From assembly GCA_039720395.1 (NCBI GenBank), contig CM077831.1:19336982-19400981 (forward strand): 64,000 nt of DNA, written 5' to 3'. The position numbers were made by a program, and so were the translations under genes. The notes beneath the pieces are model-generated. The model was not told where the DNA came from. It saw only the letters and a list, made by a program, of their open reading frames with translations, and did no database searches. The stretch comes from Liquidambar formosana (taxonomy: Eukaryota > Streptophyta > Magnoliopsida > Saxifragales > Altingiaceae). Positions 12,498 through 57,656 of this stretch are shown in pieces; the stretch's first letter is position 1; every line of letters starts with the position of its first letter.

Positions 12498-12577
12498 CTC
12501 GGGTGACCACCCAGGCCTGGGCGGCTAGCCGCCTGGGCCCAGGCGGCTAGCCGCCCAGCCCCAGGTGGTCACCCGAG
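12498..12577. promoter_or_regulatory. 80-bp quasi-palindrome, copy 1 (upstream of antisense single-exon gene)
   Basis: Outer arms CTCGGGTGACCACC and GGTGGTCACCCGAG are perfect inverted repeats. Inside are two copies of the self-palindrome GGCGGCTAGCCGCC around a central TGGGCCCA. Its near edge is 144 nt from the ATG of the minus-strand gene. Confidence 0.9.
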
Positions 12578-12829
12578 GCCGCCGCTTTGTTTCGCCCATT
12601 TTTGCCTTGTTGTGCCTTTGCTTGGCCCTTTTGTGATGTTTTGACTCATTTGTGCTTGATTTAAGCCCATTTTTCACTCAATACAAGATCATATCATTGC
12701 AATAAAGTTCAACATAGATTCATCAAGTATCCATAATAAAGGTTCAAGGTTGGGAATTGAAATTCCTAATTAATACATAACAAGATAGATAGAAAGACTC
12801 CAACATTCCTAACAAGAGGTGAGTGAAAC

Positions 12830-15491
12830 TCAATGATTTCCCGTGGGCCTTCTCTTTCGACTTGGCCCAGCTCCATCATGCCCTGAACGAGGTGCTCTAG
12901 AAGGGGGCATATCCTGTGGTGGATTAGACGATGATGCCTGTTGCAAACAAAGATAATGAGTTAGGAGGGTAATGGTGCCAATCCTAGTTGAAAGTTAATA
13001 AGATGATCACTTACTTGGGGATTCAAGCGTGCTTCCAGAACTGAGTTCTCTAAACTCATTCGCACAAGATCCCTCCTCAATCCTTCATTGAGTTCAATGC
13101 ATTCCTGGGCATACTCCCGTGGAACCTAGGAAAGTATAAACATGGTTAACAATAATGAAAGAATCCAATTTCAAGAGGATAAGAGTTTAGAACTCACATT
13201 CTCATAATATGGATCGATCTTGGGATATTCATCGAATGGTGGATGGGTAATGTCAGTCTTCACAAATTTTGTCCCACTGCACAAGTTCACATACCAATTT
13301 AGTTGTGGGAGGGGTGGAGGTTGATTTCCTTCAAGGTCCTCATCCTCGTCATTGTAAGTCATCCCAGTGGCAGATCCAACTGTGGAGCTGTGTCCCCTTG
13401 CCCGTCGGCCCTGAAATTCAAATACTTGTCAAATGGAGTTTTTCTTATAATCTTAAAAAGAGTTTAAGAGTGTGGGGAGCTCACCCCTTGAGGTGGGAGA
13501 CCAGTGACCCTAGGATTCATTAGATATTGTCGGCAAAAGGCAGTGTATTCTATGCGAGGGGAGGTGAATCCCTCAGCATCCCAACCCCTCAGAGCTTCTT
13601 CTAGTTCGTCCCCCATCAAGTGGCTAGTGTGCCTCATGTTCTCAGGTGGCATGGAAGGTGTCACAGCTGCATTCATATTTCCATGGACTTGTCTCAGGAC
13701 TCGCTCCCCAAGATACCAACTTCTACCTGTGGGGCCTTCAAAAAGGACCCTTTTGCTTGTCGACTCCAAACAAGAGGAGTACTTCTCGGGAAGCCTATGC
13801 TCCCACAGCCTCCATGGATTCCATTCCACCTGTTGAGTTTGAAATGAGAAATGAAAAAAAGAAAGATAAAAAAGATAAAGTGAAAGAAAGATTTTACCAT
13901 ATCAGCAGTCAAGCTGGCAAGATATGCCCTTGCATGGGCATAATCGTGTCGATTGGAGGCTCTTGTAGCCAAGCAAGATGGAGCGTAATTCTGAAGGATG
14001 GGCCATGACATGGCATCACTAGCAAGAGTTGGGCGACACATGTTCAGGTACTCGTAGTACCATATCTGTGGAAAATAAAAAATATAGAGGAAATCATGTA
14101 TGTGTTAAGTTTCGGGAAATAATAGAGAATTGAATGTTCTTTGTTACCTCCCAAACGAAAGGAAGTCCCCCAAAGTTCTTTGCAACTCCTCGGGACATGT
14201 CGGTCATGGAGCGATACATGTTTGCGAAAGCAGCTCCACCCCAATTGTATCTCCCAATTTTGTTCACATCCTCCATGCTAGCTAGCAACTCTAGTCGAGC
14301 CATGTCATTGGTGCCCGCAAAGAAGGTGCATGAAATCATGTAGAGCAAGAAAGCTCTCACAATGTATTGGGGATCCTGTCCCCTCACTCTCTTCTTCAGT
14401 GGCAAAGGTGTTGTAGAGCCAAGTACGGCGCACACCTTTTGGGCTCAGTTCCGCTTCAACCCCGAGTAGAGCTACTATGTAGTTCTGGTCCATGTTGGCT
14501 TGCTCATAGTATTCCAAGCGCTTGCCTTTCAAGCTCAACCCAGTTATCATGGTGAAGTCCTTAGGAGTCATGGTCATCTCCCCGAAGCTAAAATGGAAAG
14601 TGTTGGTGGTGTCCCACCATAGCTCTGTCAAGGCAAACAATGCTTGCCTATCCCATTGCTCATTCCATAGAGCATCTAGAAGGGCCCAAAACCCGCCTTC
14701 TTTACTATCTTGCGAGCACGTGGTTGGGCATGTTCCATATATCTCCACCATGAGATGAGCCCCTTTATTGATGTCCTTGTACGGAGACTTTGGAAGTCGG
14801 GCTATGTCAAAAGATTGTGTATTGAGTTAGCATTGAAAACTATAAGATATTGGGCATACATTGGTAATTGAATTTCAAATGGTTTTCCAAAAGTTTTAAA
14901 ATATGGGTTTTGATTCATGAAATGAATTAGAAATGAATGCCCATGACTTTGTGTATTCAAATTCATTGATTTTGTAAGGATTGAACATGGTTTTGCCTTT
15001 CGGGCATTTTATCGAACACTTGGTGTGTGACTTGTTTTCAAGCACTGAAATAAAAGATTTTTGTATATCAAATCCTTGCCAAAACCATATGACTTGGTTC
15101 TACAATGCAAACCAATTGATTTTTCGAGAATTGAACATGTTTTTGTCTCTTTGGCATTTTATCAAACACTTGGTGGGCATCTTTTCTCAAGCATTGGGAA
15201 ACAAGCTTTTTACACATTCAATCCTTGCCAAATCAATGAACTTGGCTTAACAATGATAGAAACAATCAAAAGAAGATCATGGGAATGCATTTTATCCAAT
15301 AGAAATCAAAATTTCATGATAAACATGTTAAGTTGGAAAGAACTAACCTCATGTTGGGAATGGAGGTAGGAGAGATGCTTCTTAGGTTCAAGCAACACCT
15401 TGTCTTGGGATGCATCATAGATTGGTGCCTTGTATGTATTCTTGATCACATAATATGGATACTTGATGTTGGAATCATTGCTAGAAGCCAT
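12830..15491 (-). CDS. Antisense intron-containing plant-mobile-domain (PMD-like) gene of element A
   Basis: Seven exons read on the minus strand: 15491-15348, 14801-14148, 14065-13898, 13829-13485, 13410-13198, 13125-13015 and 12937-12830 (TGA). Every intron has GT...AG ends, and the same seven exons and phases occur in element C (54608-57342). Exon 2 encodes the diagnostic FHFSFGEMTMTPKDFTMITGL, typical of the transposon-derived plant mobile domain family (MAIN/MAIL1-like and related TE proteins). The last exon ends in a basic tail (RKRRPTGNH). Compared with copy C, exon 2 has one extra nucleotide near 14400, a likely inactivating frameshift. PMD proteins are nuclear; a role here in silencing avoidance or element control is speculation. 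Confidence 0.75.
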
Positions 15492-15789: not shown

Positions 15790-15868
15790 CTCGGGTAACC
15801 GCCTAGCCTGGGGCGGCAAGCCGCCTGGGCTTGGGCGGCAAGCCACCAGCAGCCAGGTGGTCAGCCTC
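15790..15868. promoter_or_regulatory. Quasi-palindrome, copy 2 (degenerate, upstream of PMD-like gene)
   Basis: Same layout as copy 1 but eroded: CTCGGGTAACCGCC on the left, two GGCGGCAAGCC blocks, and GGTGGTCAGCC on the right. It lies about 300 nt upstream of the PMD-like start at 15491. Confidence 0.75.
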
Positions 15869-16259
15869 CCCTTGCTCGCTCCGTTGCGCTCGTTTGGCCT
15901 TTGCTCGCCTATTCGCGCTTTTGAACCCTCTTTGAGATGAAATCTCAAGCTTGTTTTGAGTTGAAAAATGAATAAATATCTTGACATTGTTTGACATGAA
16001 ATGATTTGAAATGGATTGCATTGGTGGCCCTTGTGCGGGCATGGCATGCTAGTAGGGTTGAACAACCCTCTCTATGCATATGGTTTTTGATCATTAGGGA
16101 TGAATTCCCTCCTATGTCACTATGATTTGTTGTCATTTGGGATAAAGATACCTTCCCTATATGCATGTGAATGATTGCTTTCATAATTGTGTCTCCTATA
16201 TGAGTTGATGTTTGAGCCAAGGCATGAATAGCCTCCATGTGAGATGACTTGGTGAATTT

Positions 16260-18080
16260 GTTGAGTGTTGGTAAGTAGAAGCTTACCTTTGTCTTGATGA
16301 CTTAGTGAGAGAAAGATGCAATCTTTCTCAGGATTACATGCTTACCTTGATGATTTGAAAGATGCAATCTTTCCTCATGACTTGTGTTTACCTTGATGGT
16401 TTGATTATGAGAAGGACGCAATCTTTCTCATGCTATGTGTTCACCTTGAGAGTTTGATATGAGAAGGATGCAATCTTTCTCACGTCCCATGTTTACCTTG
16501 ATGACTTGAAAGATGCGATCTTTCCCAATGGTATGTGTTTACCCTGATTGAAGGTTGTGACCTTCCTCGTACTATGTGACTACCTTAACAATTGAATGAT
16601 AACCTTGATGGTTTGAATATGAGAAGGATGTATCTTTCTCATGTTTTGAGATAGCCTTGATGGCTTCCTGTGGTATGTGTTTACCTTGATTGATTTGAAC
16701 AAGAGAAGGACGTGATCTTTCTCATGTTATGTGATTTACCTTGATGTTTGAATGATAACCTTGATGGTTTGAATATGAGAAGGATGTATCTTCCTCATAT
16801 TTTGAGATAGCCTTGATGGCATAGTATTACCTCATATTATTCGCCAGTTGTCACTGGCATAGTATGGGAAGACCTTTCATCGAACGAAGTTCGATGTAAG
16901 CTACGAATACCTCGTACTATTCACCAGTTGTCACTAGCATAGTATGGGAAGACCTTTCATCGAACGAGGTTCGATGTAAGCTATGGATACCTCGTACTAT
17001 TCGCCAGTTGTCACTGGCATAGTATGGGAAGACCTTTCATCGAATGAAGTTCGATGTAAGCTATAGATACCTCGTATTATTCACCAGTTGTCACTGGTGC
17101 AGTATGGGATGTGATTACTTTGATATTTGAATGATAGCCTTGATGGCTTCTTGTGGTATGTGTTTACCTTGATTGGTTTGAGCAAGAGAAGGTTGTGACC
17201 TTCCTCGTGCTATGTGATTACCTTGACAATTGAATGACAACTTTGATGGTTTGAATATGAGAAGGATGTATCTTCCTCATATTTTGAGATAGCCTTGATG
17301 GCATAATGTTACCTCGTACCATTCGCCAGTTGTCACTGGCATAGAATTGGAAGACCTTTCATTGAACGAAGTTTGATGTAAGCTATGGATACCTCATATT
17401 ATTCACCAGTTATCACTGGTGTAGTATGGGAAGACCTTTCATCGAACGAAGTTCGATGTAAGCTATGGATACCTCATATTATTCGCCAGTTGTCACCGGC
17501 ATAGTATGGGAAGACCTTTCATTGAACGAAGTTCGATGTAAGCTATAGATACCTCGTATTATTCACCAGTTGTCACTGGTGCAGTATGGGATGTGATTAC
17601 CTTGACAATTAAGTAATAACCTTGACGGTTTGAATATGAGAAGGATGTATCTTTCTCATATTTTGGGATAGCCTTGATGGCATAATGGATACCTCGTACT
17701 ATTCGCCAGTTGTCACTGGCATAGTATGGGAAGACCTTTCATCGAACGAAGTTCGATGTAAGCTATAGATACCTCGTATTATTCACCAGCTGTCACTGGT
17801 GCAGTATGGGATGTGATTACCTTGACAATTGAGTAATAACCTTGACGGTTTGAATATGAGAAGGATGTATCTTTCTCATATTTTGGGATAGCCTTGATGG
17901 CATAATGTTACCTCGTACCATTCGCCAGTTGTCACTGGCATAGAATTAGGAAGACCTTTCATCGAACGAAGTTCGATGTAAGCTGTGGATACCTCATCTT
18001 GTCCCCTAGTTGAAACTAGTATACAGTATGAGAAGAGTTCTATAGAACTTATGAGGAGTACCTTTGTGCCTGTGTATGAT
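16260..18080 (+). repeat. Hairpin-rich tandem repeat region of element A
   Basis: Two repeat types alternate. Type 1 (16300-16800 and between the arrays) holds AG-rich hairpins such as GAGAAAGAT-gca-ATCTTTCTC (16309-16329) and GAAGGT-tgtg-ACCTTC (16550-16565). Type 2 is an exact 80-bp unit, with starts at 16828, 16908, 16988 and 17068 and further copies to about 18030. Each unit carries two hairpins: GCCAGT-tgtc-ACTGGC and CATCGAAC-gaa-GTTCGATG. No gene is supported here. Tandem repeats before the 3' LTR are known in Tat/Ogre/Retand elements. Confidence 0.9.
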
Positions 18081-18216: not shown

Positions 18217-18924
18217 TGTCACACCCCATTTTTGCCACCCTAGCTAGGGTTTGTCATTGCCTGTGTCTTTTTGTTTCCTTTTTGAGTCTAGTCTTTTGCA
18301 TTGAGTTTCTAGGGTCCTAAGGATGGTGTGTATGAATTTTGGTTCGATTTGGAGTTGATCTTGAGGGTTAATTAGAACTTTTGTGACTTGAGGGGCATAT
18401 TCGTCTTTTTGATCACAAACTTTCCATTTGACCTTGAAATGATCTCCAAGTTGCCAATTGGAGTTCATATGGTTGTATTTGAGGTATTTGTGGGTTTGAT
18501 TCGATGAATTGAAGGTTCGGGATTAGAATGGCTCAACAAGGCTCAGGATGGCTAAGAGACCTACTTCGGGTTTGCTCGAATTGGTTCATGATTTTCACTC
18601 TATGACTACTCATTTGACCTTGATTGGTCTTAATTTCATCCCCAAATGTGTTTAGGGAGGTTGAATTTCGAATTGGAAAGCATTCGGTGCGACCCTATGT
18701 GCATACCTAAGCTAAGCAATGGTGAGGCATAGCGGTAACCACCTTTGTAGGACCCAACCATGTAGCCATGGCTAGGGTTTTCTTGCCCTCAAGTGACTCA
18801 AATTACATTCCCCTTCGAAACACGGTCGTTTTGGCTTTCGTTTCGTCAAAATCGGAGTTGATTTGAGCTCGGAAACACATTTGGAAGTCGAAAAGGTCAA
18901 AAATGGGCAAAAGCTGACAGTGGC

Positions 18925-19004
18925 CTCGGGTGACCACCCAGGCCTGGGCGGCTAGCCGCCTGGGCCCAGGCTGCTAGCCGCCCAGCCCCAGGTGGTCACC
19001 CGAG
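18925..19004. promoter_or_regulatory. 80-bp quasi-palindrome, copy 3 (U3 of A 3' LTR)
   Basis: Same outer CTCGGGTGACCACC/GGTGGTCACCCGAG arms and paired GGCGGCTAGCCGCC cores (second core GCTGCTAGCCGCC). Lies 188 nt upstream of the LTR TATA box. Confidence 0.92.
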
Positions 19005-19191
19005 CCACTTTCCTTTTTTGAGCCTTGACGCGGCTCCCACCCTATTTTCTCGGATTTGCTCGCCTTTGGCCGCCATTTAACCCTAATTTCAGCCCTTTTT
19101 GACCTACTTGAGCCCCAAGGTAACCTCTAAGAGCCCTTGGATCAATCCCTAGGGTTTTAATCCCAACCATTGAGGGTTTTCCCTCAATCCC

Positions 19192-19199
19192 TATAAATA
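19192..19199 (+). promoter_or_regulatory. LTR TATA box
   Basis: CCCTATAAATACCCCC context, typical of plant LTR promoters; the equivalent site in LTR B is 39935-39942. Confidence 0.75.
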
Positions 19200-22100
19200 C
19201 CCCCTTATACTTCAGCAATAGGGGGAGCCAATTTCAAAACTAGGAGAAGCACATTGGAGGCTATGGCAGCCATCCTTAGGGTAGTTCAACCTAAACTTTG
19301 AGTGAGAGAGTGTGAGAGAAGGCTTGAAGGAAGGCTAGAGCATTGCTTGGAGGCTTGAAGGAAGGAATTTCCAGCAGCACATAAGAGGAGGAGGACTCTC
19401 TACAGCAGCCACCATAGGTATGCCCCTCCCCCTTTCTCTCTTTCATTCAAACTAGGGTTTTTTACATAGCTTTGCATTATTTCATGTTTAAAGCTTATTA
19501 TTTTATCATGTGTTGATGATTCTAATGCTTAGAATGCATGATTAGGATATTGTCTATGGCTGGTTTTGCATGATATAATGTCATTCTATGTGGTTTTATG
19601 AGTGTTGGTGTTTTTAGGGTTTCTTAGAGTCTTTTCTAGGGTTTTGCATTGAATAGTCAATATTTTATGCTAAAGCTTGTGTTTTTATTGTGTTTTGCTA
19701 TTTCCATTAGTACGTATGCATGCTTAGGATCATATTTATGGGCTGTTTAGTATGCTAGGATGATGTTCCATGTGATTTACTGCATGTTTGGGACTTTAGG
19801 GTTTCTTAGGTGCTTAAAATGGTTTTCTGCATGAAATAACTCTTTGGCATACTAGAGCTTATGTTTTTATTGTGTTTTGTTGCTTCCATTGGAATGTATG
19901 CATGATTAGGATAATGTTTATGGGCTGTTTAGTATGCTAGGATGATGTTCCATGTGATTTGCTGCATGTTTGGGATCCTAGGGTTTCCTTAGTGCTGAAA
20001 TTGAGTTTATGCTTAGAATAGCTATATTTCGTGTGCAAGCTTGTATTTTTATCATGTGTGGATGCTTCTATTGATTAATATGCATGATTAGCATGATGTC
20101 TATGATGGGCTTTGCATGATTTAGAGTTATTTTATGTGGTTTTGAGCACAATTGCGATTCTAGGGTTTCATTCATCCTTGTATTAGGAAGGTTGCATATA
20201 GCATGATAGCTTAGGGTTTTTCTTTGTGTTTTCTTCATGGTTGATATATATGTGCTGCATATTTGATAACTATGATATTTCTAGCATTCATATAGGTGAT
20301 TTTAGGGTTTTTTGCATGTCATTGCATGTAGGGTTGAATTAGGGCTTCAGTTAGCTTATGATTCATGTTGTTGCATGACTTGTGGTTGATTTTAGGCCTT
20401 ATTTCAATTCTGTCCAGATCTGTTATTTGTCCTTGATGTGATATTTTGAGCATGTGTTAGCCTATGTTTGGGCATGATAATGGCTTGATTTGGCATCTAG
20501 CTTGTTTGGTTGGCATTTTTGGTATGTTTTGCATGGAAATTGCAGGTGCTTTGACAGGTACAACAGGTGCAACTACCCCACCAATGTGGGGTGGTTATTT
20601 TGGCTATTGTGAGATGAAATCTTGCAAACTACCCTATGCAATAGGGTGGTTATTTTGACAGGTTGCTTTGCTAAAGGTAAGTAGGGTGTGAGGGTGCCCC
20701 AATTCACCCTTCTTTCCTTTTCCTTGAAACTTTCCTTTTCTCCCCCCCTAGGGTGGTTTCCTAATAGAGGGGTATGGTAACTCCTATAGTTTCCTTTCAA
20801 TAACAAATACCTTTTGAATCAAGGTTTCCATGTTTTACCAAAAATCTTTTGAGAATCATTTATTTTGGAAACTTACCATGTTTTACTTAAAAGGAAACTT
20901 AGGGTTTACCATAGGCCTTGATTAGGTTATAACCCTATTCCCTTTCGAACTACGTGGACTTTGATCCATGTATTTCCATACATGGTACGTAGGCGCTCTC
21001 CGTGATGTTCAAGTCCGCCCTAGGATACTAAGTATCCTAGGTTTTCTCCCCCCTCTTTCTTTTTCTGTTTTTCTTTGATTTACTTGATTATGTGGATGAA
21101 TGGATGAATGATATGCATGCTGTCTTGTGATGATAATTGTTGATTTGTGTGTGATTAAGACTTTGATTTAGCCCAATTAAATTAAGAGACCGTTTAGGGC
21201 GATATGGGTGCCTATAGGCTTTGCCTAGAACCTTCCCATATCGTAACTTAGCCTCCGAATCCCCGAATTCTCTGGTTTCCAAAAGATCATTTGCCTTACC
21301 ATTTTTAAACATGGAGTCATTATTTTGTTTTCCTAAAACAAAACTGTTTTTTAGGGTTTTCCTTGTTTCCTTTAAAAAATAAGGTGGCGACTCCCTTTTC
21401 CTTTTTCAAACCTAACCAATCTCTTCGCCAATCCCTCGTGGGCCCAATTTCCGGGGTCCACAAAGTGAATTAGAGCACTTTATACCCTACTTACCCGAGC
21501 ACAATAGATCCAAGCATTAGCCATTTCAAGCCATAGCAGCCCTATTTGCAATAGGACAAGCATTGTACCTGTTTGCACCTTTACAAGTGCACAAAATCAT
21601 GCAAAGAGGAGCAATATGCTAATTTGGACAGAACCATGACAAGGCCTAAAATCACCCATTTATCATGCAAACAACAAGAATAATGAATAACTAAGGACCC
21701 TAACTCAATCCTATATGAAAATAGATGATATTTTATGTAAAATATGAAAATAGACCTTCCTACGGCGAGCTTTCTTAAGCGAAACTATCCTAAGATAATT
21801 TCACGTAAAAAAGTCATTATGGGGAGGTGCAATCAACATATCCTACGTAAAATATATATACTAGAACACAATGGAAGTGATTTCATGCTTAAACACATCA
21901 CAGAAAGCTCTCATGCAAAACCTCACTCAATGAAAAGGATAATTATCCTTAGAAAAGGATAATGTCTCCAAAAACCCTATAAAATCTACAATATGAATGC
22001 AAACCTAGCATGATTCAACTATATGCAGCATATATAGAATGACTATGATGAGAAATTACTCACAAAACTAAGCTAAGCATGCTGTATGAGACCTGTGTGA

Positions 22101-22833: not shown

Positions 22834-22913
22834 CTCGGGTGACCATCTGGCCCTGGACGGTTAGCCGTCTGGGCTTGCACGGCTGACCATCCAGCCCCGG
22901 ACAGTTACCCGAG
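22834..22913. promoter_or_regulatory. 80-bp quasi-palindrome, copy 4 (degenerate, in B' LTR)
   Basis: CTCGGGTGACCATC...GTTACCCGAG with eroded cores (ACGGTTAGCCGTC). The length is still exactly 80 bp despite the sequence drift. Confidence 0.8.
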
Positions 22914-23162: not shown

Positions 23163-24854
23163 TGTTAGGATTATGCCCTAGAGCCAATCATAGAGATGAT
23201 TGTTTAGGGATTAGGAACAATCAATTGATTTCATTTATATATGTCACATTTATTATTGATTTAATAAAAAGGCTTATTCTATTATGTTTATATGCATCAT
23301 TTATATTTACATAATATGTCCATGGAGTTAGAGTTGAGAATATGAAATTACAAAGGGTTGTAATTTTGAGACTCTAAATATATCTCTGTACTAAACTCCT
23401 AAATCATTCCTAGTTGAAGGTTCACTATGATGGACAGTAATGAACCATAGGACTAGCACTTATTAGGTTGACTCTATAGGAGGATAGCTAGTCTCAAGCT
23501 ATTTGTGTGGAGACACTACAACCAACAAGTGGGTGCCTATTATAAGAATAGGTACACTGAATGTGACCAAAGATATGAGATAAACTGAATGGAGTTTTAA
23601 CCTGCCTGTCAATCAGTTTCTCATTGTTATAGTGGTACAAGTAATCCTTAGACCTGAGACACCATGGTTGTCTTATACATGTAGCTTTAGAAGTTTGATA
23701 ACACTAAGTGCAGATCCTATTCAGGGGTCTGTAAGGGTGTTCATTGGCCCTACTGCTATGTGTGTGAAGGCATGTGAGTGATCAACAAGGAATCCATCAC
23801 TCTTAGGAAAAAGAAAGTGAATGTCTCATACAGCATTCATTAAATATAACTCATTAAATCCATGGGCCCATGGTAGAATGAATATGGAAAGGAGTTTCCA
23901 TAAGTTCATCATTGAGTTGATATTAATGAATGAGTATAAAGTAATTGAACTAGGGACTTGACAGACTTCCATGTCCTATTAGTTCAATTGGAGACATTGT
24001 GTTGATGGAAGGATGGAATTGTAACCTGTAAACTATAACAGAAGGGTTCTTTGTAAATGACTATTCATCTCATTAAGGACCACACCATGAGCCATATGCT
24101 AGGTGTTACTCATGGTTAGTAGAAGCCCTAATTGATATAAATGAGTTATAATCAATTAGGGAATTGAAAGGAGTTTCAATTAGACCCTTAATGGAAAGTG
24201 TTCCATTGTGCACAACTTGTGCTGTTCCTACTACTTGATGATGTGAACCCAATGGGTCACACACTGATCATGCTAAGAGAGCTTGATTGTCTATGAGAGA
24301 AAGGGCATAAGTGATTAAAGAAAAGTTCTTTAAGGGGCTAATTTGTATTTGATGCAAACTAGTGGGCTAATTGTGTAATTAAGAGTAATTACACAAATTA
24401 GATTAGGGTTTGGAATCCCCCCTTGGCCGGCCCTATTAGTGGGCTATATAATGCCCACTATAAGGTGATGACATCATCACAATCACTCCTCCCCAAGGGC
24501 TGGCTGAAAATTACAGCTCTCCCTCTCTCTCTCTCTTTCTTCTCCACCTCTAGCAACAACAAGGAAGAAGAAGGAAAGGACTTCAAGTTCAAGCTAGGTG
24601 TGGATACCATTGGAGGCAGCACACTTGGGCTGCTCATTCACCGCTGTCCAGAGACAAAGCTTGGAGCAAAAAGGAGAAGACAAAGCTTGGAGCATAAAGG
24701 AGAAGACATTAATCAACTGTAAGTAATCCCAACTCTCTTGGTAGTTAGGGTTTATGTTTTTGTATTATGCATAATCGGATTCATGGGTTTGGGAATCGTA
24801 GGAAAATTTTAATTCCGCCCTTTGTAGTTTTCCTCTCTAGTTCGATTCCCAACA
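23163..24854 (+). mobile_element. Solo LTR D, copy 1 (1692 bp)
   Basis: Starts TGTTAGGATTATGCCC and ends GATTCCCAACA (TG...CA). It is flanked by the perfect 5-bp duplication TTCCC (23158-23162 and 24855-24859) within the B' LTR. A reverse copy lies at 48884-50551. No protein domains. A 99-codon ORF at 24423 is LTR leader, not a recognisable gene. The superfamily cannot be fixed without internal sequence; the size would suit a copia or gypsy element. Confidence 0.88.
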
Positions 24855-25316
24855 TTCCCAATTAAAATTCGATCTTTATAAACATATCTAGGATGTAAAT
24901 AAAGCCCAATTGAAGTTAAATAAGAGAAAATTGGTTGGGTCTTATGAGTCAATTTGAGCACACCAAGAAAGGGTCTTTTAGCCAACCCGAACCATTATGA
25001 GCTGAATTAATCTTAAACCATTAATTCATGAAATTGAACCTATATATAGACTCTATGTACTCATATGAACTTGTGGGGATGACTCGGGATTCATTTCAAG
25101 GTCAAATGGAAAATAGATGGCTTAAAAGACGATTATGCCCTTAAAGTCGCAAAAGTTCTTGTTGACTATCGAAATGAACTCCAAACCACTTCAAAATTCA
25201 TACACATGATATTTAATGCCATAGAAACTCAATGCAAAAGGCTAGACCCGAAAAGGACTCAAAATCCTACATGAAATGATATGTCCTAACTAAGGTGACA
25301 AAAATGGGGTGTGACA

Positions 25317-41647: not shown

Positions 41648-41650
41648 GTT

Positions 41651-46037: not shown

Positions 46038-48159
46038 ATGGATATTTATGACATGGATATAAATCCTAGGAACGATGTCCCCCCGGAGCTCGTTGAGCAA
46101 AGGAAAAGGGGCGTCACCGAACCTAATATGGATGAACTAGAATCAATCAACTTAGGGACGAATGAATTGCCAAGAATAGTTAAAATTGGGAAAACCCTCT
46201 CCCCTGTTGAAAAAGAAAAGATGATCTCCCTCTTGAAAGCCAACATTATGGCTTTTGCGTGGTCTTATGAAGACATGCCTGGCATTGACCCCGATATTGT
46301 GCAACACTATATCCCCACTAATTCCCTAAAGAAGCCGGTAAAGTAGAAACTCAGAAGATTAAAACCAGAATGGGCTCTAAAAGTAAAAGAAGAGGTAGCT
46401 AAACAACTAGACGCGGGTTTCCTCCAAGTTGTGGAGTACCCCGAGTGGTTGTCAAATATAGTGCCTGTACCTAAAAAAGATGGGAAAGTGAGGATGTGTA
46501 TCGATTTCCGAGATCTCAACGCTGCGAGCCCTAAGGATGACTTTCCTTTACCCCATATCGACGTGTTGGTAGACAGTACAGTGGGACATGCACTCCTCTC
46601 CTTCATGGACGGATTCTCCGGGTATAACCAGATAAAGATGGCGCCTCAAGACATGGAGAAAACAGCCTTTATCACGCAATGGGGAACGTACTGTTACAAG
46701 GTAATGCCTTTTGGCTTAAGAAACGTTGGGGCTACTTACCAAAGAGCAGCAATGACCCTATTGCATGATATGATCCATAAGGAAGTCGAGGTTTATGTCG
46801 ATGATATGATCGTGAAGTCCGTGGATAGGGAAGGGCATTTCAAGGCACTAGAGAAATTCCTAGAGCGAGCAAAGAAGTACAATCTCCGTTTAAACCCACA
46901 GAAGTGCGCTTTTGGTGTCACTGCAGGCAAGCTATTGGGGTTCATGATCACTCAGAGGGGCATCGAAGTGGACCCAGGGAAGATAAAAGCTATTGTGGAG
47001 ATGGAGCCGCCCAGCACTGAGAAGCAGATCTGAGGTTTTCTGGGAAGAGTTCAATACATAAGTCGATTTATTGCCAACTTGACCATGGTTTGCGAACCAA
47101 TCTTCAAATTGCTTAAGAAAGGTGTGCCAAAAGTATGGAATGAAGAATGCCAAGAGGCCTTTGAGACCATTAAGAGATACTTGAGTAATCCTCCAATCTT
47201 AGTTCCCCCACGGCAAGGTGCACCGCTCTTGTTATACTTAACGGTCACCGAAACCGCGACGGGAGCTATATTAGCTCAATATCTCGAAGGGTCTACAAAG
47301 GAGAATGCCATCTACTACCTAAGCAAGAAAATGACAGACTATGAAGTGAAGTACAATGCCATTGAAAAGGCTTATGTGGCACTAGTATGGGCGACGCAGA
47401 AACTCCGGCACTACATGATGTCCTTCGAAGTGTTCTTGATAAGTCGCATAGACCCGTTGAAGTACCTGATAGAGAGGCCAGTATTGTCATACAGAACTGC
47501 TCGATGGTCAATTCTCCTCAATGAATTTGACATCAAGTATGTGAATCAGAAGTCTATCAAAGGGAGCGTCATCGCAGACTACCTAGCTAGCTGTCCTGTG
47601 TCATCATCCGCTCCGTTCAACGATCAATTCCCAGATGAGGACGTGCTAGAGATTGGTAGAAAGACTTGGAGAGTATACTTCGATAGGGCAGCCAATAAGA
47701 AAGGTTATGGGATATGAGTCCTGATAGTTTCACCTGAAGAGGCATTTACACCGTTGGCAGTCAAGTTAGGGTTTGAAGCTACCAACAACATTGCTGAGTA
47801 TGAGGCCTGTATCCTAGCATTGGAAGCAGCACTTGAATTTGGGATCAAAGAATTAGAAGTGTTCGGGGACTCGGTGCTAATCATTTGTCAGATAAAAGGG
47901 GAATGAAAAACTTGAGATGAGAAGCTATTGCCATACCATGCCTATCTAGAAGCTCTAACCAAGGAGTTCTCAGAAATAGAGTTCAACTACTTGTCAAGAA
48001 ACAAGAACCAGTTCACCGATGCCTTGGCGACCCTAGCGTCCATGGTGGAGATACCTAAAGGGGAAAATGTGAAGCCGTTGGTGATAGAATGTCGAGACAA
48101 GCCTGTGTACTGTTGTGCAATCCGAGGAGGAGAAGTAAATGATGGCCATCCGTGGTTCC
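46038..48159 (+). pseudogene. pol: Pol of element B, nonsense-mutated and truncated
   Basis: Starts MDIYDMDINPRND, 19 nt after an AG acceptor (46018). RT (YVDD present), RNase H and the second RNase H are recognisable. In-frame stops: TAG 46344-46346 (CAG in A), TGA 47031-47033 (CGA), TGA 47715-47717 (GGA), TGA 47904-47906 (TGG) and TGA 47913-47915 (CGA). Catalytic-site context also decays (FDRAAN for FDGAAN). The integrase is absent because element C inserted at 48159, just after the second RNase H. Confidence 0.93.
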
Positions 48160-48883
48160 TGTGAACCCCGAAAATTGGGCCCACTAGGGTTGGAAAGAGA
48201 ATAGGTTTGAAAAAGAAAAAGGAAAGGAGTCGCCACCTTATTTTTTAAAGGAAACAAGGAAAACCCTAAAAACCATTTTTTGTTTTAAAGAAAAAACAAT
48301 TTTGAATGACTCCATAAAAAAGGAAAGGGCAAAAACCAATCTTTTGGAAACCAAAGAAATCAGGGATTCGGAGGCTAAGTTATGACATGGGAAGGTTCTA
48401 GGCAAAGCCTATAGGCACCCATGTCACCCTTTCGGTCTCTCGGTTCATTTGGGCTAAATTAAAGTCTTTCCATACAAAAATCAGCAAGTATATCATCACA
48501 AGAATTGCATGCATATCATATATTTCATTCATCCATCCATGCATAATAAACACATAAAAACAGAAAATAAAGAAAAACAAAACAAAACAAAAAGAAACCT
48601 AGGATGCTTGGATCCTAGAACGGACTTGAGCCTCACGAAGAGCGCCTACGTACCATGCAACGAAATACATGGATCAAAGTCCACGTAGTTCGAATAGAAG
48701 TAGGGTTAAGTCCTAATACAAACCTATGGTTAAAACCCTAGGTTTCCTTATTTGATCAAAAGAGTTGAATTTGATAGAAAGTTTGATTTTAGGAAAGAAA
48801 TCCACAAAATGGAAACCTTGATAAAAACAGAATTTTATTGGTTAAGGAAACCCTTGATTAGAACCATTGATTCATATTAAAAA

Positions 48884-50551
48884 TGTTGGGAATCAAACTA
48901 GAGAGGAAAAACTAAAAAGGCGGAATTTAAAATTTTTCCTACGATTCCCAAACCCATGAATCTTAATTATGCTTAATACAAAACAAAAACCCTAACTAGA
49001 AGAGGGTAGAATTACTTACAGTTGATTCAAGTCTTCTCCTTTATGCTCCAAGCTTTGTCTTCTAATTGAGCAGTCCAAGTGCACTGCCTCCAACAGTATC
49101 CACACCTAGCTTGAGCAAGTTGTCCTTTCCTTCTTCTTCCTTAGGGTTGCTAGAGGTGGAGAAGAGGGAGAGAGAGAGAGGGAGAGCTGTGAAATTTTCG
49201 GCCAGCACTTGGGAGCCTCCAAGAGTGCATCAAGTGATGATGTCATCACATCATAAAAGGCTTTAAATAGCCTCCAACTAGGGCCGGCCAAGGGGGGATT
49301 CCAAACCCTAATCTAATTTGTGTAATTACTCTTAATTACACAATTAGCCCACTAGTTTGCATCAAATACAAATTAGCCCCTTAAAGAACTTTTCTTTAAT
49401 CACTTATACCCTTTCTCTCATAGACAATCAAGCTCTCTTAGCATGATCAGTGTGTGACCCATTGGGTTCACATCATCAAGTAGTAGGAACAGCACAAGTT
49501 GTGCACAATGGAACACTTTCCATTAAGGGTCTAATTGAAACTCCTTTCAATTCCCTAATTGATTATAACTCATTTATATCAATTAGGGCTTCTACTAACC
49601 ATGAGTAACACCTAGCATATGGCTCATGGTGTGGTCCTTAATGAGGTGAATAGTCATTTACAAAGAACCCTTCTGTTATAGTTTACAGGTTACAATTCCA
49701 TCCTTCCATCAACACAATGTCTCTAATTGAACTAATAGGACATGGAAGTCTGTCAAGTCCCTAGTTCAATTACTTTATACTCATTCATTAATATCAACTC
49801 AATGATGAACTTATGGAAACTCCTTTCCATATTCATTCTACCATGGGCCCATGGATTTAATGAGTTATATTCAATGAATGCTGTATGAGACATTCACTCT
49901 CTTTTTCCTGAGAGTGATGGATTCCTTGTTGATCACTCACATGCCTTCACACACATAGCAGTAGGGCCAATGAACACCCTTACAGACCCCTGAATAGGAT
50001 CTGCACTTAGTGTTATCAAACTTCTAAAGCTATATGTATAAGACAACCATGGTGTCTCAGGTCTAAGGATTACTTGTACCACTATAACAATGAGAAACTG
50101 ATTGACAGGCAGGTTAAAACTCCATTCAGTTTATCTCATATCTTTGGTCACATTCAGTGTACCTATTCTTATAATAGGCACCCACTTGTTGGTTGTAGTG
50201 TCTCCACACAAATAGCTTGAGACTAGCTATCCTCCTATAGAGTCAACCTAACAAGTGCTATTCCTATGGTTCATTACTGTCCATCATAGTGAACCTTCAA
50301 CTAGGAATGATTTAGGAGTTTAGCACAGAGATATATTTACAGTCTCAAAACTACAACCCTTTGTAATTTCATATTCTCAACTCTAACTCCATGGACATAT
50401 TATGTAAACATAAATGATGCATATAAACATAATAGAATAAGCCCTTTTATTAAATCAATAATAAATGTGACATATATAAATGAAATCAATTGATTGTTCC
50501 TAATCCCTAAACAATCATCTCCATGATTGTCTCTAGGGCATAATCCTAACA
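48884..50551 (-). mobile_element. Solo LTR D, copy 2 (1668 bp, reverse)
   Basis: Reverse copy of 23163-24854, from TGTTGGGAATC to GGGCATAATCCTAACA, flanked by AAAAA on both sides (48879-48883 and 50552-50556). It sits at a different position within the host LTR than copy 1. No gene. Confidence 0.88.
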
Positions 50552-51767
50552 AAAAATTAACCCTAAAGAGGGAGAAGGGAAAGAGTTAAGAAGAGAGGTG
50601 AATTGGGGCACCTTCATACCCACTTACCTGAGCGCAATAGCTCCAAGCATTAGCCATTTCAAGCATTGGCAGCCCTATTTGCCATAGGACAATTACCACA
50701 CCTATTTGCACCCTTACAAGTGCTCAAAACCATGCAAAAACAATGATATGCAAATCTGGACAGAATAGTATTATGGCCTAAAAATCATCCACTAAGCATG
50801 CTAACAGCAAAAACAGCAAACTTTCGTAAGCCCTAACATATTCCTAGAACCATATCATGCATAAAAACCCTAAAACATACTAACATGCATGCAAAAATAT
50901 CATATTTACTCCATATGAAAAACATATACAGCAAACATGAAGAAAAACCAATGAAAAGACCCACTTTAACATGCTGTATAAAAACAAACACAATATCAAG
51001 ACTCTAAAACCCTAAACTCACAAATATGCTTAAAAACATATAAAACAAACTTCACACATACTAAAATAAACCTAAACAGAACCTAAACCATGCATATTAA
51101 TTAACTAAAGTAACAAAACATGATAAGAAACCCTAACACTAATATGCAATGACACTATCCTAGCATAAGGACAACAGAAGCACTAAAAATCACAACTATG
51201 CATAAAAACATATAGGACAGCCCTAAAGCATGCTAAACAGTAGATAAACAGTAGATATTCCATGTATATTAACTAGCTAGAGTGTTAATACATGATAAAA
51301 AAGTTACCTTTAACATGCAATAGGCCTATTCTATGTGAAAACCCATATTCAGCATGAACAAAGAGTGAGGAATACCTTAAGAAGGAGCTTTCTTTGCTGC
51401 TGTAGAGACTCTCTCTTCCTCTTAGGGATGACTTGAACCAATGTTCTCTAAGGCTACAGCAAGAACTCCAGCTCTCCTTCAAGTCCCTCTCTCTTATTCT
51501 CTCTCAAACACTTAAGTTTTAATGCATAAAGTGGCTCCCCTTGTGCTGAAGCATAGCGGGGTATTTATAGAGTTTCATTAGGATTAACCAATGGCTGGGA
51601 TTAAAACCCTAAAAATTAATCCAAGGGCTATTAGAGACCCCCTTGGGGCTTAAGTAACTCAGAAGTTACCAAAAATTAGAAGGAAACTCGTCCAAAAGAG
51701 CCCTTGTACGTCAAAATAGGGAGGAATCCGCTTCAGCAAGGAAACATGGTGTAAATAGGAAAGTGGT

Positions 51768-51847
51768 CTCGGGTGACCACCCAAGGCTGGGCGGCTAGCC
51801 ACCTGGGCCCAGGCGGCTAGCCGCCCAGGCTTGGGTGGTCACCCGAG
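51768..51847. promoter_or_regulatory. 80-bp quasi-palindrome, copy 7 (U3 of LTR C)
   Basis: CTCGGGTGACCACC...GGTGGTCACCCGAG with cores GGCGGCTAGCCACC and GGCGGCTAGCCGCC. Confidence 0.92.
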
Positions 51848-52557
51848 CCCACTTCTAATTTTTTGCCTGTTTTGACTCCTAATCCTTCTAGAAGTGTTTC
51901 AGGGGGCAAATTAACTCCGATTTTGATGAAACAAAAGCCAAAACGACCGTGTTTCGATGAGGAATATGTTTTTGAACATTTTAGGGTGAAAACCACTAAC
52001 CATGGGGGCATGGTTAGGGTTGAACAAGGCAGTTAACCACTATTCTCTACCTTTGCTAAGCATAGGCATGCATATAGGGTCAAACCAAATGCTTTCCATA
52101 TCAAAATTGAACTTCATAAAACACTTTTGGGGATAAAATGATGACTAATGAAAGTCAATTTGAAAAGATTTGGTTGGTAATTGTGAGTCAATTAGAGCTA
52201 ACCCAGGGAAGGGTCAATTAACCAACTTGAACTGTATTGAGCCATTTTAATCTCGAGCCATTGACTTATCAAATTGACACTAGAAATACCTCTTATGCAT
52301 CCATATGAACTCCAATTGACAATTTGGAGATCATTCCATGGTCAAATGAAAAGTTTGGGACTTAAAAGACGATTATGCCCTTTAAGTCACAAAAGCTCTT
52401 ATTATCCCTCAAGATCAACTCCAATTTGAACCAAAATTCATATCCATTGTCCTTGTGACTCTAGAAAACTAATGCAAGTGACTAGACTCAAAAACCAAAC
52501 AAAAACATGCATGAAATGATGAGCCCTAGTAAGGTGGTGCAAAAATGGGGTGTGACA

Positions 52558-52566: not shown

Positions 52567-52599
52567 CATTGGCGAACAAGTTACACTTGTGAACCAATG
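52567..52599 (-). other. Nested hairpin abutting the polypurine tract of element C
   Basis: CATTGG / ACAAGT / ACTTGT / CCAATG stems with 3-nt spacers and loop, the same geometry as 18175-18207. The inner stem changed from GCAAGT/ACTTGC to ACAAGT/ACTTGT, keeping pairing. Confidence 0.8.
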
Positions 52600-52789
52600 A
52601 TAAAGAACAACCCATTTTTGCTAAAAAGCCTGGAGAAATCACACACTGATACCAACAATGATGGGAGGTTGAAAACCTGAGACTGAAATAAGGAAGTGTA
52701 CTCAAGTCATGAGTATACTTAAACCACTGAGGGTTGAGAATTGATAAGAGAAGCATATTCAAACCACTACGAATGAACATACTTTTGAA

Positions 52790-53960
52790 ATGGAGAAATA
52801 TATTCTAGTCACGAATATATTTAACCAAGTGATTAGAATGAGATCTGAGAAGTACGTTCAAGTGATGAACGTACCTTGGAAATGGAGAAGTATATTCAGG
52901 TCACGAATATATTTAACCAAGTGAGTGACAAAATATCTGAGAAGTATACTCAAATGATGAGTATACCACTGAAATAGAGAAATATATTCAGGTCACGAAT
53001 ATATTTAACCAAGTAATCTGAGAATGAAATCTGAGAAGTATACTCAAGTGGTGAGCATACCATTGAAATGGAGAAATATATCCAAGCGAGGGATATATTT
53101 AACCAAGTAGGATTAGAATAATCTGAGAAGTGTACTCAAGTGATGAGGATACTTAATGATTGAGAAAGACTGAGAAGTACGTTCAAGTGATGAACATACT
53201 TTTGAAATAGAGAAATATATTCTAGTCACGAATATATTTAACCAAGTAAGCTGAGAAGTACACTCAAGTGATGAGCATACCATTGAAATGGAGAAATATA
53301 TCCAAGCGATGGATATATTTAACCAAGTAAGTGACAAGTATGTTTAAGTGATAAACATACCATTGAAATGGAGAAATATATCCAAGTGATGGATATATTT
53401 AACCAAGTAGGATAGGAATAATCTGAGAAGTGTACTCAAGTGATGAGTACACCATTGAAATGGAGAAATATACTCTAGTCACGAATATATTTATCCAAGT
53501 AAGTGACAAGTATGCTTAAGTGATAAACATACCATTGAAATGGAGAAATATATCCAAACGATAGATATACTTAAGCAAGTAAGATAGAGAATAATCTGAG
53601 AGGTGTACTCAAGTGATGAGTACACCATTGAAATGGAGAAATATATTCTAGTCACGAATATATTTAACCAAGTAAGTGACAAGTATGTTTAAGTGATAAA
53701 CATACCATTGAAATGGAGAAATATATCCATGTGATGGGTATACTTAACCAAGTAAGATAGGGAATGAGGATTGGGAACCGAGAAGCATATTCAAAGGGTA
53801 AATACACTTTTGAAATGGAAGAATATATTCAAGTGATGAATATATTCAACCAAGTATGATAGAGAATGAGAATTTGAAACTGAGGAGTATATTCAAAGGG
53901 TGAATACACTTTTGAAATGGAAGAACACATTCAAGCGATGAATATATTCAACCAAGTAGG
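52790..53960 (-). repeat. Covarying hairpin array of element C
   Basis: Roughly 90-115-bp units, each with two hairpins. Hairpin 1 has loop AAGTGAT and 8-bp arms that differ between units: GTACGTTC/GAACGTAC (52852-52874), GTATACTC/GAGTATAC (52944-52966), GTATGTTT/AAACATAC (53338-53360) and GTGTACTC/GAGTACAC (53430-53452). Hairpin 2 has arms AAATATATTC/GAATATATTT (52980-53006) or AAATATATCC/GGATATATTT (53074-53100). ORFs across it are artefacts. Confidence 0.92.
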
Positions 53961-54607
53961 ATGAAAAATCAAGATTTGAAATGAGGATATATGATCAATT
54001 TATCAAGATTAAACAAGCATGGTGCAAGAGGAAAGTGACTTACCACATTGTCACTTGAGTTGGCATGGCACAGGGGAAATATATTCAACCCTTTTGAACA
54101 TAAAATCAATTCAAAGAATTGATTTCAAGGTGAAATTTGATTGATTTTAAGCTCAAAAAGTGTCGAATATCTCATTTGGAAGAAGGTTTGATCACGCGCT
54201 AAGGCGAGACAAAGCGAGGGAGAAAGCCAAAACAAAGTGGCTTGGGTGACCACCAGGCCTCAGGAGGCTAGCCGCCCAGGCCCTGGTGGCTAGCCGCCCA
54301 GGGCTTGGGTGGTCACCCGAGCCTATTTGCTGAAAAATCTGGTTTTTTAAATGCATAAGTGCACTATTCATACCCCTTGTTCAAAGAACCCAAAAATTGA
54401 GAGTTTCTCTCTCTAGGAAGCTTACCCCATTTTGCAAAATCACTCCAATACCCAAGAGCAATCAAATCCACACTTCAAGAAGGATTCATACACATGAAAT
54501 AGCATCATTAACACCCAATTTCACATCAAAAACCAGAAATTTGCAGCACTTTGCAAATCAAAATCCATTAAACCCATTTTTGCTCAAAACAAGCTAGTTC
54601 ATCCACC
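53961..54607 (+). promoter_or_regulatory. Upstream region of the PMD-like gene of element C
   Basis: Non-coding sequence before the gene at 54608. It includes the quasi-palindrome copy at 54241-54321; no clear TATA box was seen. Confidence 0.55.
54241..54321. promoter_or_regulatory. 80-bp quasi-palindrome, copy 8 (upstream of PMD-like gene, element C)
   Basis: CTTGGGTGACCACC...GGTGGTCACCCGAG with cores GGAGGCTAGCCGCC and GGTGGCTAGCCGCC (81 bp). About 287 nt upstream of the ATG, comparable with about 299 nt in element A. Confidence 0.9.
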
Positions 54608-57342
54608 ATGGATCCAAATGAAGACTCCACTTCAAAGTATCCATTCCTTGACTCAAAGAGTAGATACAAGGCACCAATATATGATGTTCCTCAAGAGAAA
54701 TTGCTTCTAGAACCAAGGAATCATCTCTCTTTTCTCCATTCCAAGCAAGAGGTAAGCTTACCCATTTTAAACTTTTCTTTGAAATTTTCATTTTTGTTGA
54801 TTGAAATGCATTCCCATGAACTCTCTATGAGTATTCCTAGCAATGTTTGCAATGCCCATTGATTTTGGCAAGGATTGGATGTGAAAAGAATTCAATTTGA
54901 AAACTTGGTGAATAGTGCCCACCAAGTGTTTGATAAAATGCTTGAATGATGAAAATTCATCCAATCTTTGTAAAATTGATGTGTATTGCAAGGCAAAATC
55001 ATAGGCATTCATTTCTAATTGATTTTAGAAACAAAGCCAAGCATTTTCATGAACTTTGAAAAACAAAGTTTGCTATATTTTTGAAAAACCCATGTTTTCA
55101 TGAACAAGGTTTGCTTATTTTTTCCTTAAAAAACCACTTTAGAAAACAAAGTTTGCTTGCTATTTTCTTTGAAAAATCCATGTTTCCATGGTCTTGGAAT
55201 ACATGGTTTACCAATGATCATGAGTTTGAAGAATAAAACCAATGTTTTCATAAACTTTCAAAGCAAGGTTTACTTGTTCATGAACTAAAAAACTTAGTTT
55301 TTGAAAAGCCAATTATCAATGCTTGCATATGATTTTTTTTACACTAACTAGGTGAATGATTCTTCTTGATTAGCCCAACTTCCAAGACCTACGCACAAGG
55401 TCTTCGATAAAGAATCTTATTGGGTGGTGGAGGCGTATGGAACACACCCAACCTTCCGCAAGAGAATCCATTAAGAAAGCGGGTTTTGGTTGGTTTCTTG
55501 ATTCCCTATGGAATGAACAGTGGGATAAGCAAGCCCTCCTTGCCTTGGCTGAGCTATGGTGGGATACCACCAACACTTTCCACTTCAGTTTTGGGGAGAT
55601 GACCATGACTCCTAAGGATTTTTCAATTATCACCGGTTTAAGCCTCAAATGAAAGAGGTTGGAATTCTATGGAGATGCCAACACGGATAGTGCCTATCTC
55701 TTCACTATGTTAGGGATGGATATTGAGGCGGGCTCACGCGGTGTTAGGAGGACATAGCTATTCGAGAATTTTTCCAACCAACTGGAAGGTGTGGGAGTGG
55801 CTCCCGAGTGCATGGCTAGGGCTTTCATGATCTATATGCTTTCTTGCACTCTCTTTGTTGGTGCCAATGACATGGCATAACTGGGATATCTTGCCTCCAT
55901 GGTGGATGTGAACAAGATGGGAAGATATAACTGGGGAGGGGTAGCACTAGCCACTATGTACAGATCCATGTCTGACATGTCTCGAGGTGTTTCCAAGAAT
56001 TTTGGTGGGCTTCCCTTTGTTTGGGAGGTAAGTAAAAATATTTAATTTTTTAGATTCCTCTCAAACTTGATTTGATTTTAATGCTTTTCTTGAATTTTGA
56101 CAGATATGGTATTATGAATACTTGGGACTGTGCCGCCCCACCCTGGATAATGAGATACAGGAATGGCCCATACTTGGGAACTATGCCCCCACCAAGATAG
56201 CCGTGCGTGCCCCCAATAGGCATGACTACGCCCATGCAAGGGCGTACTTGGCAAGCTTAAATGCTGATATGGTGACCCTCCTTCCTCATTCTTTATTCAT
56301 TTTTTTTTTTATTATCTTGCTCATCATTTTTCCCAAATTCAACAGGTGGAGTGGAGCCCATGGGGGCTGTGGGAGGCTAGGTTGCCTAGGAGATGTGTGT
56401 CCTATTTGGAGTTGACTGGAAAGAGGGTACTTTTTGAGGGTCCCTCAGGGTGCTACTGGTATTTGGGGGAGCGCGTCCTTAGGCAGGTGAAAGGACGAGT
56501 GGATGCCGCTCTTACCCCTGTCTTGCCTCCCATGAACATGAGGCATACTGACTCTCTGGATGGGGATGAGCTGATGGAAGCTCTGACTGGGTGGGACGCT
56601 GAGGAGTTCACCTCGCCTAATACCGACTACATGACTTTCTGCAATCAATTTCTGATGCGTCCTAGAGTCATTGGTTTCCCACCTCAAGGGGTGAGTCTCT
56701 ATTCCATTCTTTTCAATTATTGACTTGTGCAAGCACTCTCCTTAAGCAAATTGTCTATTGCAGGGCCGGCGAGCTCGTGGACATAGTTCCACAATAGCGT
56801 CCTCCACAGGCATGACTCATGGGGATGAGGATTATGAGATGGGGGGAATGGCACAGCCACCTCTCCCAGTTCTCGACTGGCAAGTGAATATATGTAATGG
56901 GTTGGAGTTTATGAGGACTAACATTACTCACCCTGCTTTTGATGAAGTCCCTAGGATTGACTCGAGCTATGAGCATGTAAGCTCTAACCCTTTGCCTTCC
57001 TGAAAACCTCTTTCATCATTTATTAACCATGTTCATCTTTTAGGTTCCTCGAGAGTACGCACAGGAGTGCCTTGAACTCAACGAGGGATTGAGGCGAGAC
57101 CTTGTTAGGATGAGTTTGGCGAACTCGATGCTAGAGGGACAACTGAATCCCACTGTAAGCCATTCCCTTTGTTCATTCCAATCATAGGAGCTAATGATAT
57201 AACCCTTCTTTATTAATTGATTTCTTTGCAACAGGTCTCCACATTGCGCCCACCACAGCCAATGCCACCCCCAGGGAATCCTCATGCTGGTCGTGGTAGA
57301 GGCGAATCAAGTAGAAAGAGAAGAACCACGGGAGACCATTAG
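54608..57342 (+). pseudogene. PMD-like intron-containing gene of element C (nonsense-mutated)
   Basis: Seven exons match element A: 54608-54751, 55374-56027, 56104-56271, 56346-56690, 56764-56976, 57044-57154 and 57235-57342 (TAG). All introns are GT...AG. Exon 2 has FHFSFGEMTMTPKDFSIITGL, then three in-frame stops by comparison with A: after SLK (about 55650), TAG for Trp (about 55756) and TAA for Arg (about 55878). Exons 3-7 remain open. The basic end SRKRRTTGDH is kept. A non-functional copy, but it confirms the gene model. Confidence 0.82.
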
Positions 57343-57576
57343 ATTAGCTTACCCTCTTGCTTTGTAATCGAATGAAACATCTTTCTTTATGCTTTTTAAT
57401 CTCTCTTTGAACACTTGCTTTGGTACTTTGTATGAGACTTTTGGAATTCCATGGTGGTGATTTACTCGTATTTTGGTGCAAAAATAAGCTCAAAATAAGC
57501 TTCCTAGGGTCACATAACCATATAGGGGCCAAAAGAGGTCAAAAATAGGCAAAACTGGGCAAAATAGGAAAACGGC

Positions 57577-57656
57577 CTCGGGTGACCACCCGGGGCTGGG
57601 CGGCTAGCCGCCCAAGCCCAGGTGGCTAGCCGCCCAGGCCTAGGTGGTCACCCGAG
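57577..57656. promoter_or_regulatory. 80-bp quasi-palindrome, copy 9 (upstream of single-exon gene, element C)
   Basis: CTCGGGTGACCACC...GGTGGTCACCCGAG with cores GGCGGCTAGCCGCC and GGTGGCTAGCCGCC. Its edge is 144 nt from the ATG at 57800, identical to the spacing in element A. TATAAAA at 57744-57750. Confidence 0.92.

Follow-up and report, generated by a model that had tools for sequence, protein, structure and literature searches.

What does it mean that one palindromic sequence recurs in front of several different genes of the same retrotransposon? The question is posed by a 64,000-nt stretch of the Liquidambar formosana genome (contig CM077831.1 of assembly GCA_039720395.1, positions 19,336,982-19,400,981 of the forward strand), which as a whole we call the window. 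It holds nested Ty3/gypsy elements with gag and a pol of the order RT-RH-aRH-INT: element A (plus strand), carrying gag, pol and two antisense genes for plant mobile domain (PMD) proteins, the single-exon PMD1 and the spliced PMD2; element B, a 5' half; element C (minus strand); and two further long terminal repeats (LTRs), both on the minus strand, one a lone A-type LTR and the other of a type called X. Our analysis supports a single promoter module of about 80 bp that is common to three transcription units of one element family (LTR, PMD1 and PMD2) and stands at fixed positions in each, and it favours reading this module as a protein-bound array of several sites rather than as a cruciform.

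A first-pass annotation had listed nine copies of this quasi-palindrome, and all nine were present where it had placed them, far beyond chance: a sequence-only model recovered exactly these nine, the next match having an E value of 5.5. Eight copies measure 80 bp and one (54241-54321) measures 81 bp, where seven or eight of 80 bp had been claimed. The outer arms and the central GGGCCC, described as shared, are exact in fewer copies; both arms are perfect in five of the nine, GGGCCC occurs in five of the nine, and the other copies deviate. The six top palindromic centres of the window (scores 20-38, a (TA)n run aside) are all modules, whereas the best centre outside them scores 11 and the maximum over 60 dinucleotide shuffles is 12. 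Three copies are poor palindromes at the 80-bp register (15790, 46 of 80 positions self-complementary; 22834, 56 of 80; 54241, 46 of 80), and these still keep the array of sites described below. We rejected a tenth module near 26644 (E 5.5), in a region without similarity to the internal region beside an X-type LTR, and ruled out a MITE-like hitchhiker, as the module positions are common to the LTR lineages and to the PMD1 promoters of A and C. Scans of viral and prokaryote contigs found no relative, and a literature search judged by titles and the beginnings of abstracts brought no paper recognised as describing it.

Within the LTRs the module occupies U3, at 18925-19004 in the 3' LTR of A, 31891-31970 in the lone A-type LTR (minus strand; identical to the 18925 copy), 39657-39736 in the 5' LTR of B and 51768-51847 in the 3' LTR of C (minus strand). 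The location in U3 of A-, B- and C-type LTRs that had been reported holds for all of these; a further copy, at 22834-22913, sits in the fourth type, X, on the minus strand. It had also been assigned to every A LTR, which does not hold, since the 5' LTR of A matches the 3' LTR only from 842 (equivalent to 19445), past the TATA equivalent. The U3 and module of that 5' LTR are missing or displaced (1-842), and an (AT)n run lies at 582-635. In the five window LTRs that hold U3, the module starts 707-710 nt after the LTR start (708 nt in the 3' LTR of A) and ends 187 nt (A, lone A and X) or 198 nt (B and C) before the TATA box, counted between the two, where 188-199 nt had been noted for A and B; distances in the X-type LTR were taken with the two pieces flanking its insertion joined end to end. 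The difference of 11 between the two spacings is about one helical turn.

The two antisense genes are also preceded by the module. At the PMD1 promoters of A (12498-12577) and C (57577-57656), the module end lies 87 nt from TATAAAA (12404-12410, minus strand, and 57744-57750, plus strand) and 143 nt from the ATG in both elements; counted from start to end, this is the 144-nt spacing to the single-exon gene previously noted for A and C. Upstream of PMD2, the copy of A (15790-15869) keeps the array with the palindrome mostly lost, and that of C is the 81-bp copy. Here the module end is 24 nt (A) or 21 nt (C) from a TTTAAA-like box and 298 or 286 nt from the ATG, and a CT-rich 23-bp block AAAATTGAGAGTTTCTCTCTCTA, identical in A (15717, minus strand) and C (54393, plus strand) and situated 72 or 71 nt past the module, is a possible start region. 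The placement upstream of both antisense genes was correct as first described, and the multi-exon gene proves to be a second PMD gene.

Collecting copies throughout the 718-Mb host genome revealed that length and spacing are largely fixed (80 bp; 187 or 198 nt; 87 nt). Exact arms with 30-60 bases between them gave 3,095 matches, as compared to 0 for a reversed control; among the 50 matches listed, 49 were 80 bp long and one was a 58-bp version with three sites, one fewer than usual (G000:C1:22622100-22622157). With 61-90 bases between the arms there were 53 matches, and among the 50 of these longer copies listed, 16 were exactly 102 bp, a five-site version one 22-bp step longer, which was the commonest length. 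A protein search of the genome with PMD1 returned 5,961 candidates; the 98 that were scored had identities of 94% or more, and the module stood beside PMD1 in 30 of 30 fetched PMD1 loci, only partly found in two (L026 and L028). Together with 40 further stretches around listed modules, these made 70 loci with 72 modules (32 LTR, 39 PMD1 and one unclassified). Of the 32 LTR modules, 25 had TATA at exactly 187 or 198 nt and four more were within 2 nt of this; the remaining three, long variants matched in part only, had TATA at 215, 230 and 230 nt. An LTR start could be located for 28 of the 32 and was 703-714 nt away in 25. PMD1 modules were 87 nt from TATA in 32 of 39 cases, the others being at 84, 88 (two), 89 (two) and 121 nt, with no TATA found for the last.

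What is the module made of? Its layout is four 14-bp sites at a 22-bp pitch, separated by 8-bp spacers. Among the eight distinct window copies, pairwise identity is 86.5% in the sites versus 63.5% in the spacers, and 32 of 56 site columns are invariant versus 3 of 24 spacer columns (Fisher P = 2e-4). The same contrast recurs in 25 distinct LTR modules of the genome (95.6% versus 78.4%) and, less sharply than there, in eight distinct PMD1 modules (89.7% versus 79.2%). Between the cruciform and the multi-site operator originally offered as readings, the operator fits best, given the 22-bp pitch, the 102-bp variant and the greater conservation of sites over spacers. A fold under selection, whether an RNA hairpin or a DNA cruciform serving in packaging or dimerisation, as a trigger of double-stranded RNA responses or as an insulator, would account for the very strong hairpins predicted for seven of the eight distinct copies (z -4.8 to -14.3), for the pairing of 85.3% of cells as against 24.7-48.7% when the copies are slid, and for eight pairs in which both partners changed (the shuffles average 5.5, and 57 of 500 reach eight). 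Yet spacer pairs are often broken, the 85.3% does not rise above column shuffles (mean 84.8%; 155 of 500 as high), and copy 15790 folds little beyond chance (z -1.66; 10 of 200 shuffles as good) while retaining its sites and their spacing. The spacing to the promoters is fixed as well, and the palindromy of the whole is explained by tandem copies of a palindromic 22-bp unit. We consider a selected structure very improbable; because the sites outdo the spacers in conservation and copy 15790 keeps its sites without the fold, a protein-bound array is favoured.

We also compared the module with its surroundings between lineages, as the annotation had suggested, with a divided outcome: from A to C it is better conserved than its adjacent flanks and than four-fold sites, and from B to C it is no better conserved than its flanks, as taken up below. 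A and C modules are identical at 74 of 80 positions in the LTR, 74 of 80 at PMD1 and 61 of 81 at PMD2, compared with about 60-68% in the adjacent flanks and with four-fold sites identical at 39 of 92 in PMD1 and 156 of 336 in pol. In the A-C alignment of U3 the module ranks first among 1,192 windows of 80 columns; between A and B, 21 windows are as good. A and X share 58 of 80 module positions, above the module's own 60-bp flanks (27 of 59 and 19 of 39).

The inner half-sites of the array come in two dialects. All six read GGYGG(YY) in A, B and C and GAYGG(YY) in a second group, the X module showing the latter in six of six. X differs from the PMD1 module of A by 14 changes in the six inner half-sites, and one of the seven positions is changed in all six (permutation P = 0.004). 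Four GA modules were seen (X and three beside fetched loci), two in LTRs, one at PMD1 and one internal. The PMD1 case (L047:2527-2606) adjoins a PMD1 piece that is 70% identical to that of A over 183 residues, with one stop; C-type PMD1 loci are 68-75% identical to A by piece. The internal one (L049:2803-2879; site spacing 21, 22 and 22) lies 1.4 kb before the start of an X-like LTR (86-92% identity to X), and from this position, with a nested insertion adjoining, it appears to be a PMD2 module; the remaining one is in the U3 of the same X-like LTR (L074:487-566). At position 2 the 24 GA half-sites carry A 23 times and T once; in 42 distinct 80-bp modules outside this group (37 came from loci, the others from the window), 250 of the 252 half-sites have G there. 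The Fisher value for this contrast, 4.5e-18, treats half-sites as independent, though they are not. Positions 1, 4 and 5 of the GA group depart in 5 of 72 cases, whereas positions 3, 6 and 7 are mixed, which speaks against a simple overwriting of one unit by another. The loci yielded 38 distinct 80-bp modules, of which 35 had six G, two had five and one had none, and modules with two to five changed half-sites were absent from this set. That two dialects coexist in one nucleus, with the half-site letter depending on the lineage, suggests a reader that is lineage-specific and probably encoded by the element, and so lends indirect support to the element-encoded binding protein considered in the annotation.

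Candidate readers are PMD1 and PMD2, beside which no accessory gene was seen in the window. PMD1 of A (11068-12354, minus strand) is an open frame of 428 amino acids with PMD (PF10536) and DUF7745 (PF24924) matches, and PMD1 of C (57800-59067, plus strand, antisense to its element) is not one open frame from the ATG. Between them, PMD1 is under purifying selection: three methods applied to 324 codons put nonsynonymous divergence (dN) at 0.18-0.20 and synonymous divergence (dS) at 1.1-1.7, with 72, 47 and 149 differences at the first, second and third codon positions. For PMD2 of A (13015-15491, minus strand; it may extend further) six exon blocks, with PMD matches in the main exon, were compared with PMD2 of C (approximately 54608-57140, plus strand, spliced, with frame breaks in exon 2). 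The third codon position holds most differences in five of the six blocks; the remaining block, exon 2, lacks an open frame in both elements.

Outside the module, GTCAAAA recurs in transcription orientation, often about 30-40 nt before LTR and PMD1 modules, and CCTATTTT or TTTTGACG recurs likewise, often about 35-55 nt after them; we take these motifs to be W-box-like. A flank block AAGGTCAAAAATRGGCAAAA common to the PMD1 and A-LTR promoters was equalled by 12 and 1 of 5000 shuffles, and by 34 and 25 of 5000 random stretches of the window (which can include true LTR copies), so that this link between the promoters is suggestive only. The PMD2 flanks, in the same orientation, showed no similarity to the other promoters that reached a low P.

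How might such an array work? We propose that it is a cis-regulatory binding array, placed by the element in front of its genomic (LTR) promoter and of both antisense promoters (PMD1 and PMD2), and read by an element-encoded protein that would switch all three units together; we give this an about even chance of being right. The four dyad-like sites would present one face of the helix, with spacers freer to vary, and a sequence-specific DNA-binding protein would occupy the inner half-sites, GGYGGYY in A, B and C and GAYGGYY in the other group. The likeliest reader would be either PMD1 or PMD2; with its own gene under the same array it would regulate itself, and it may act as an activator or anti-silencer, as VANC does on VANDAL elements. 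In this narrower form, in which a gypsy-encoded PMD is a sequence-specific regulator that reads its own lineage's dialect and drives or un-silences the LTR promoter and its own antisense genes, the proposal is a tentative one that we consider somewhat less likely than not.

Ordinary host transcription factors could instead bind the module, with the element using it as an enhancer at all its promoters. AP2/ERF factors bind the GCC-box AGCCGCC, TCP-type factors bind TGGGCCCA, and the LTRs of Tnt1 or ONSEN use host factors; AGCCGCC occurs one to four times in eight of the nine window modules, the outer half-sites are near-constant in both lineages, and GTCAAAA and TTTTGACG surround LTR and PMD1 modules. 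The X module, however, lacks AGCCGCC and TGGGCC, although array, length and position are all retained in it, and a single factor would hardly account for one group in this nucleus having the same letter changed throughout its inner half-sites. We regard the host-factor explanation as unlikely, and the GCC-box, absent in X, was rejected as the defining motif. Less likely again is concerted turnover, in which template switching or gene conversion would homogenise the modules within an element and the dialects would be a by-product, with no lineage-specific reader. It would fit the PMD1 and LTR modules of A, which are identical at 79 of 80 positions (24 of 24 in the spacers) while the similarity of the flanks drops to background at the module edge; but in C-type elements the LTR and PMD1 modules are both GG despite 7 differences in their 24 spacer positions, and the GA group is uniform only at position 2, varying at the three mixed positions noted above.

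Several observations weigh against an array read by the element's own protein. In comparisons with X, 295 (A), 315 (B) and 337 (C) of 1,192 windows are as good as the module or better, which puts it in the upper third, and between B and C the module (71 of 80) changes as fast as its flanks (53 of 60 and 55 of 60). Flanks common to PMD1 and LTR promoters allow simple common descent, and 34 of the 50 longer copies listed are not 102 bp (range 89-114; six at 101 and six at 111). The GG and GA groups are split by the very letter in question, and only four GA modules were found, of which two come from LTRs of a single family. In the GG modules retrieved by pattern, the search itself fixed two of the six half-sites and left four free; not included in the GG count are 12 rows (of 72) with other lengths and the window copy of 81 bp. 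Both dialects have near-constant outermost half-sites (CTCGGGT/ACCCGAG), to which a common, perhaps host, factor may also bind. Finally, the predicted structure of PMD1 (pLDDT 36.1) tells nothing about DNA binding, and its sequence found no match among PDB chains.

The elements that carry the array belong to the Tat group of Ty3/gypsy and are of Ogre/Retand type, as aRH lies between RH and INT, an order described for Ogre and Retand (Neumann 2019, PMC6317226). In A, gag (a frame with a weak G-patch match) spans 3559-7197 and RT-RH-aRH-INT 7207-10752, both on the plus strand, the pol open reading frame (ORF) matching RT_RNaseH at 448-550, RVT_3 at 601-719 and Integrase_H2C2 at 812-867. They are most like Ogre, in which PMD in an extra ORF is a frequent rather than defining feature; Transposase_28 (TRP28), the Retand marker, had no Pfam match in the two PMD1 frames and ten further antisense pieces, some frames remaining unscanned. 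The 3' LTR of A lies at 18217-21462 (plus strand), the 5' LTR of B at 38947-41647 (plus strand) and the 3' LTR of C, with a 1.7-kb insertion, at 48160-52557 (minus strand). B is broken off in pol at 48159, and at the junction 48159-48160 C appears to have inserted into it, ending B there. The 1.7-kb sequence is also found, 93% identical, in the X-type LTR (23163-24856; 48882-50551 in the C-type LTR). Downstream of the module, A-type LTRs contain 182-bp tandem repeats (1067-1501, 19670-20104 and 30887-31283), and the tandem-repeat arrays between PMD2 and the 3' LTR, as in Retand elements, differ between A (16293-18023) and C (52773-53992).

How does this arrangement relate to known systems? VANDAL elements are DNA transposons of the MULE type, and the present elements, being of the gag-pol LTR type, fall outside VANC/VANDAL, judged without comparing the VANC sequence. 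The likeness lies in the principle: as described for VANC/VANDAL in Arabidopsis (Hosaka 2017, PMC5735166), a transposable element (TE) bears repeated short motifs in its own noncoding regions, the motif letters differ between related families and change together, and a candidate reader is encoded by the element. Such a concerted change of motif between related families was also found here, with four GA modules only. Unlike VANDAL, the present case concerns an LTR retrotransposon with a fixed four-site palindromic array at its promoters, and PMD instead of VANC.

Ogre and Retand elements share the long region between pol and the 3' LTR, with antisense genes and, in Retand, tandem repeats; PMD is reported in 57% of Ogre elements, and a regulatory role has been suggested for Retand TRP28 (Neumann 2019, PMC6317226; Vicient 2025, PMC11963269). 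What differs here is the presence of two PMD genes and an array common with the LTR, no shared promoter array figuring in the descriptions of those elements in PMC6317226 and PMC11963269. The antisense and regulatory genes of HTLV-type retroviruses, named in PMC11963269, offer an analogy only, that of an accessory gene proposed to act on its own transcription. According to Ikeda 2017, PMD-A1 and A2 occur only in Gypsy elements, and anti-silencing was speculated there for PMDs captured by MULEs. MAIN and MAIL1, which are host PMD-C proteins, are needed for the expression of genes with a common promoter motif and for TE silencing (Nicolau 2020, PMC7156037; PMC9899485), and the same two papers leave open whether PMD complexes read a promoter motif. 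The DOWN motif in question, CATGCAGTTT, differs from our module and has 0 matches on either strand of the window, and we rejected it as the module's identity.

The function of the plant mobile domain is called unknown or undetermined by Nicolau 2020 (PMC7156037) and Ikeda 2017. The module offers a concrete candidate target DNA for PMD, with a built-in specificity control (GG versus GA half-sites) within one genome, and it turns the question of whether TE-encoded PMD proteins read DNA into a direct one of binding. If our proposal is true, a plant LTR retrotransposon would recognise its own genome in parallel to VANC/VANDAL, through about three thousand modules in the host genome, and would possess a self-recognising, Tat/Tax-like feed-forward circuit. 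It would also give the PMDs of transposable elements a molecular role, which would bear on MAIN and MAIL1, their domesticated relatives, as well.

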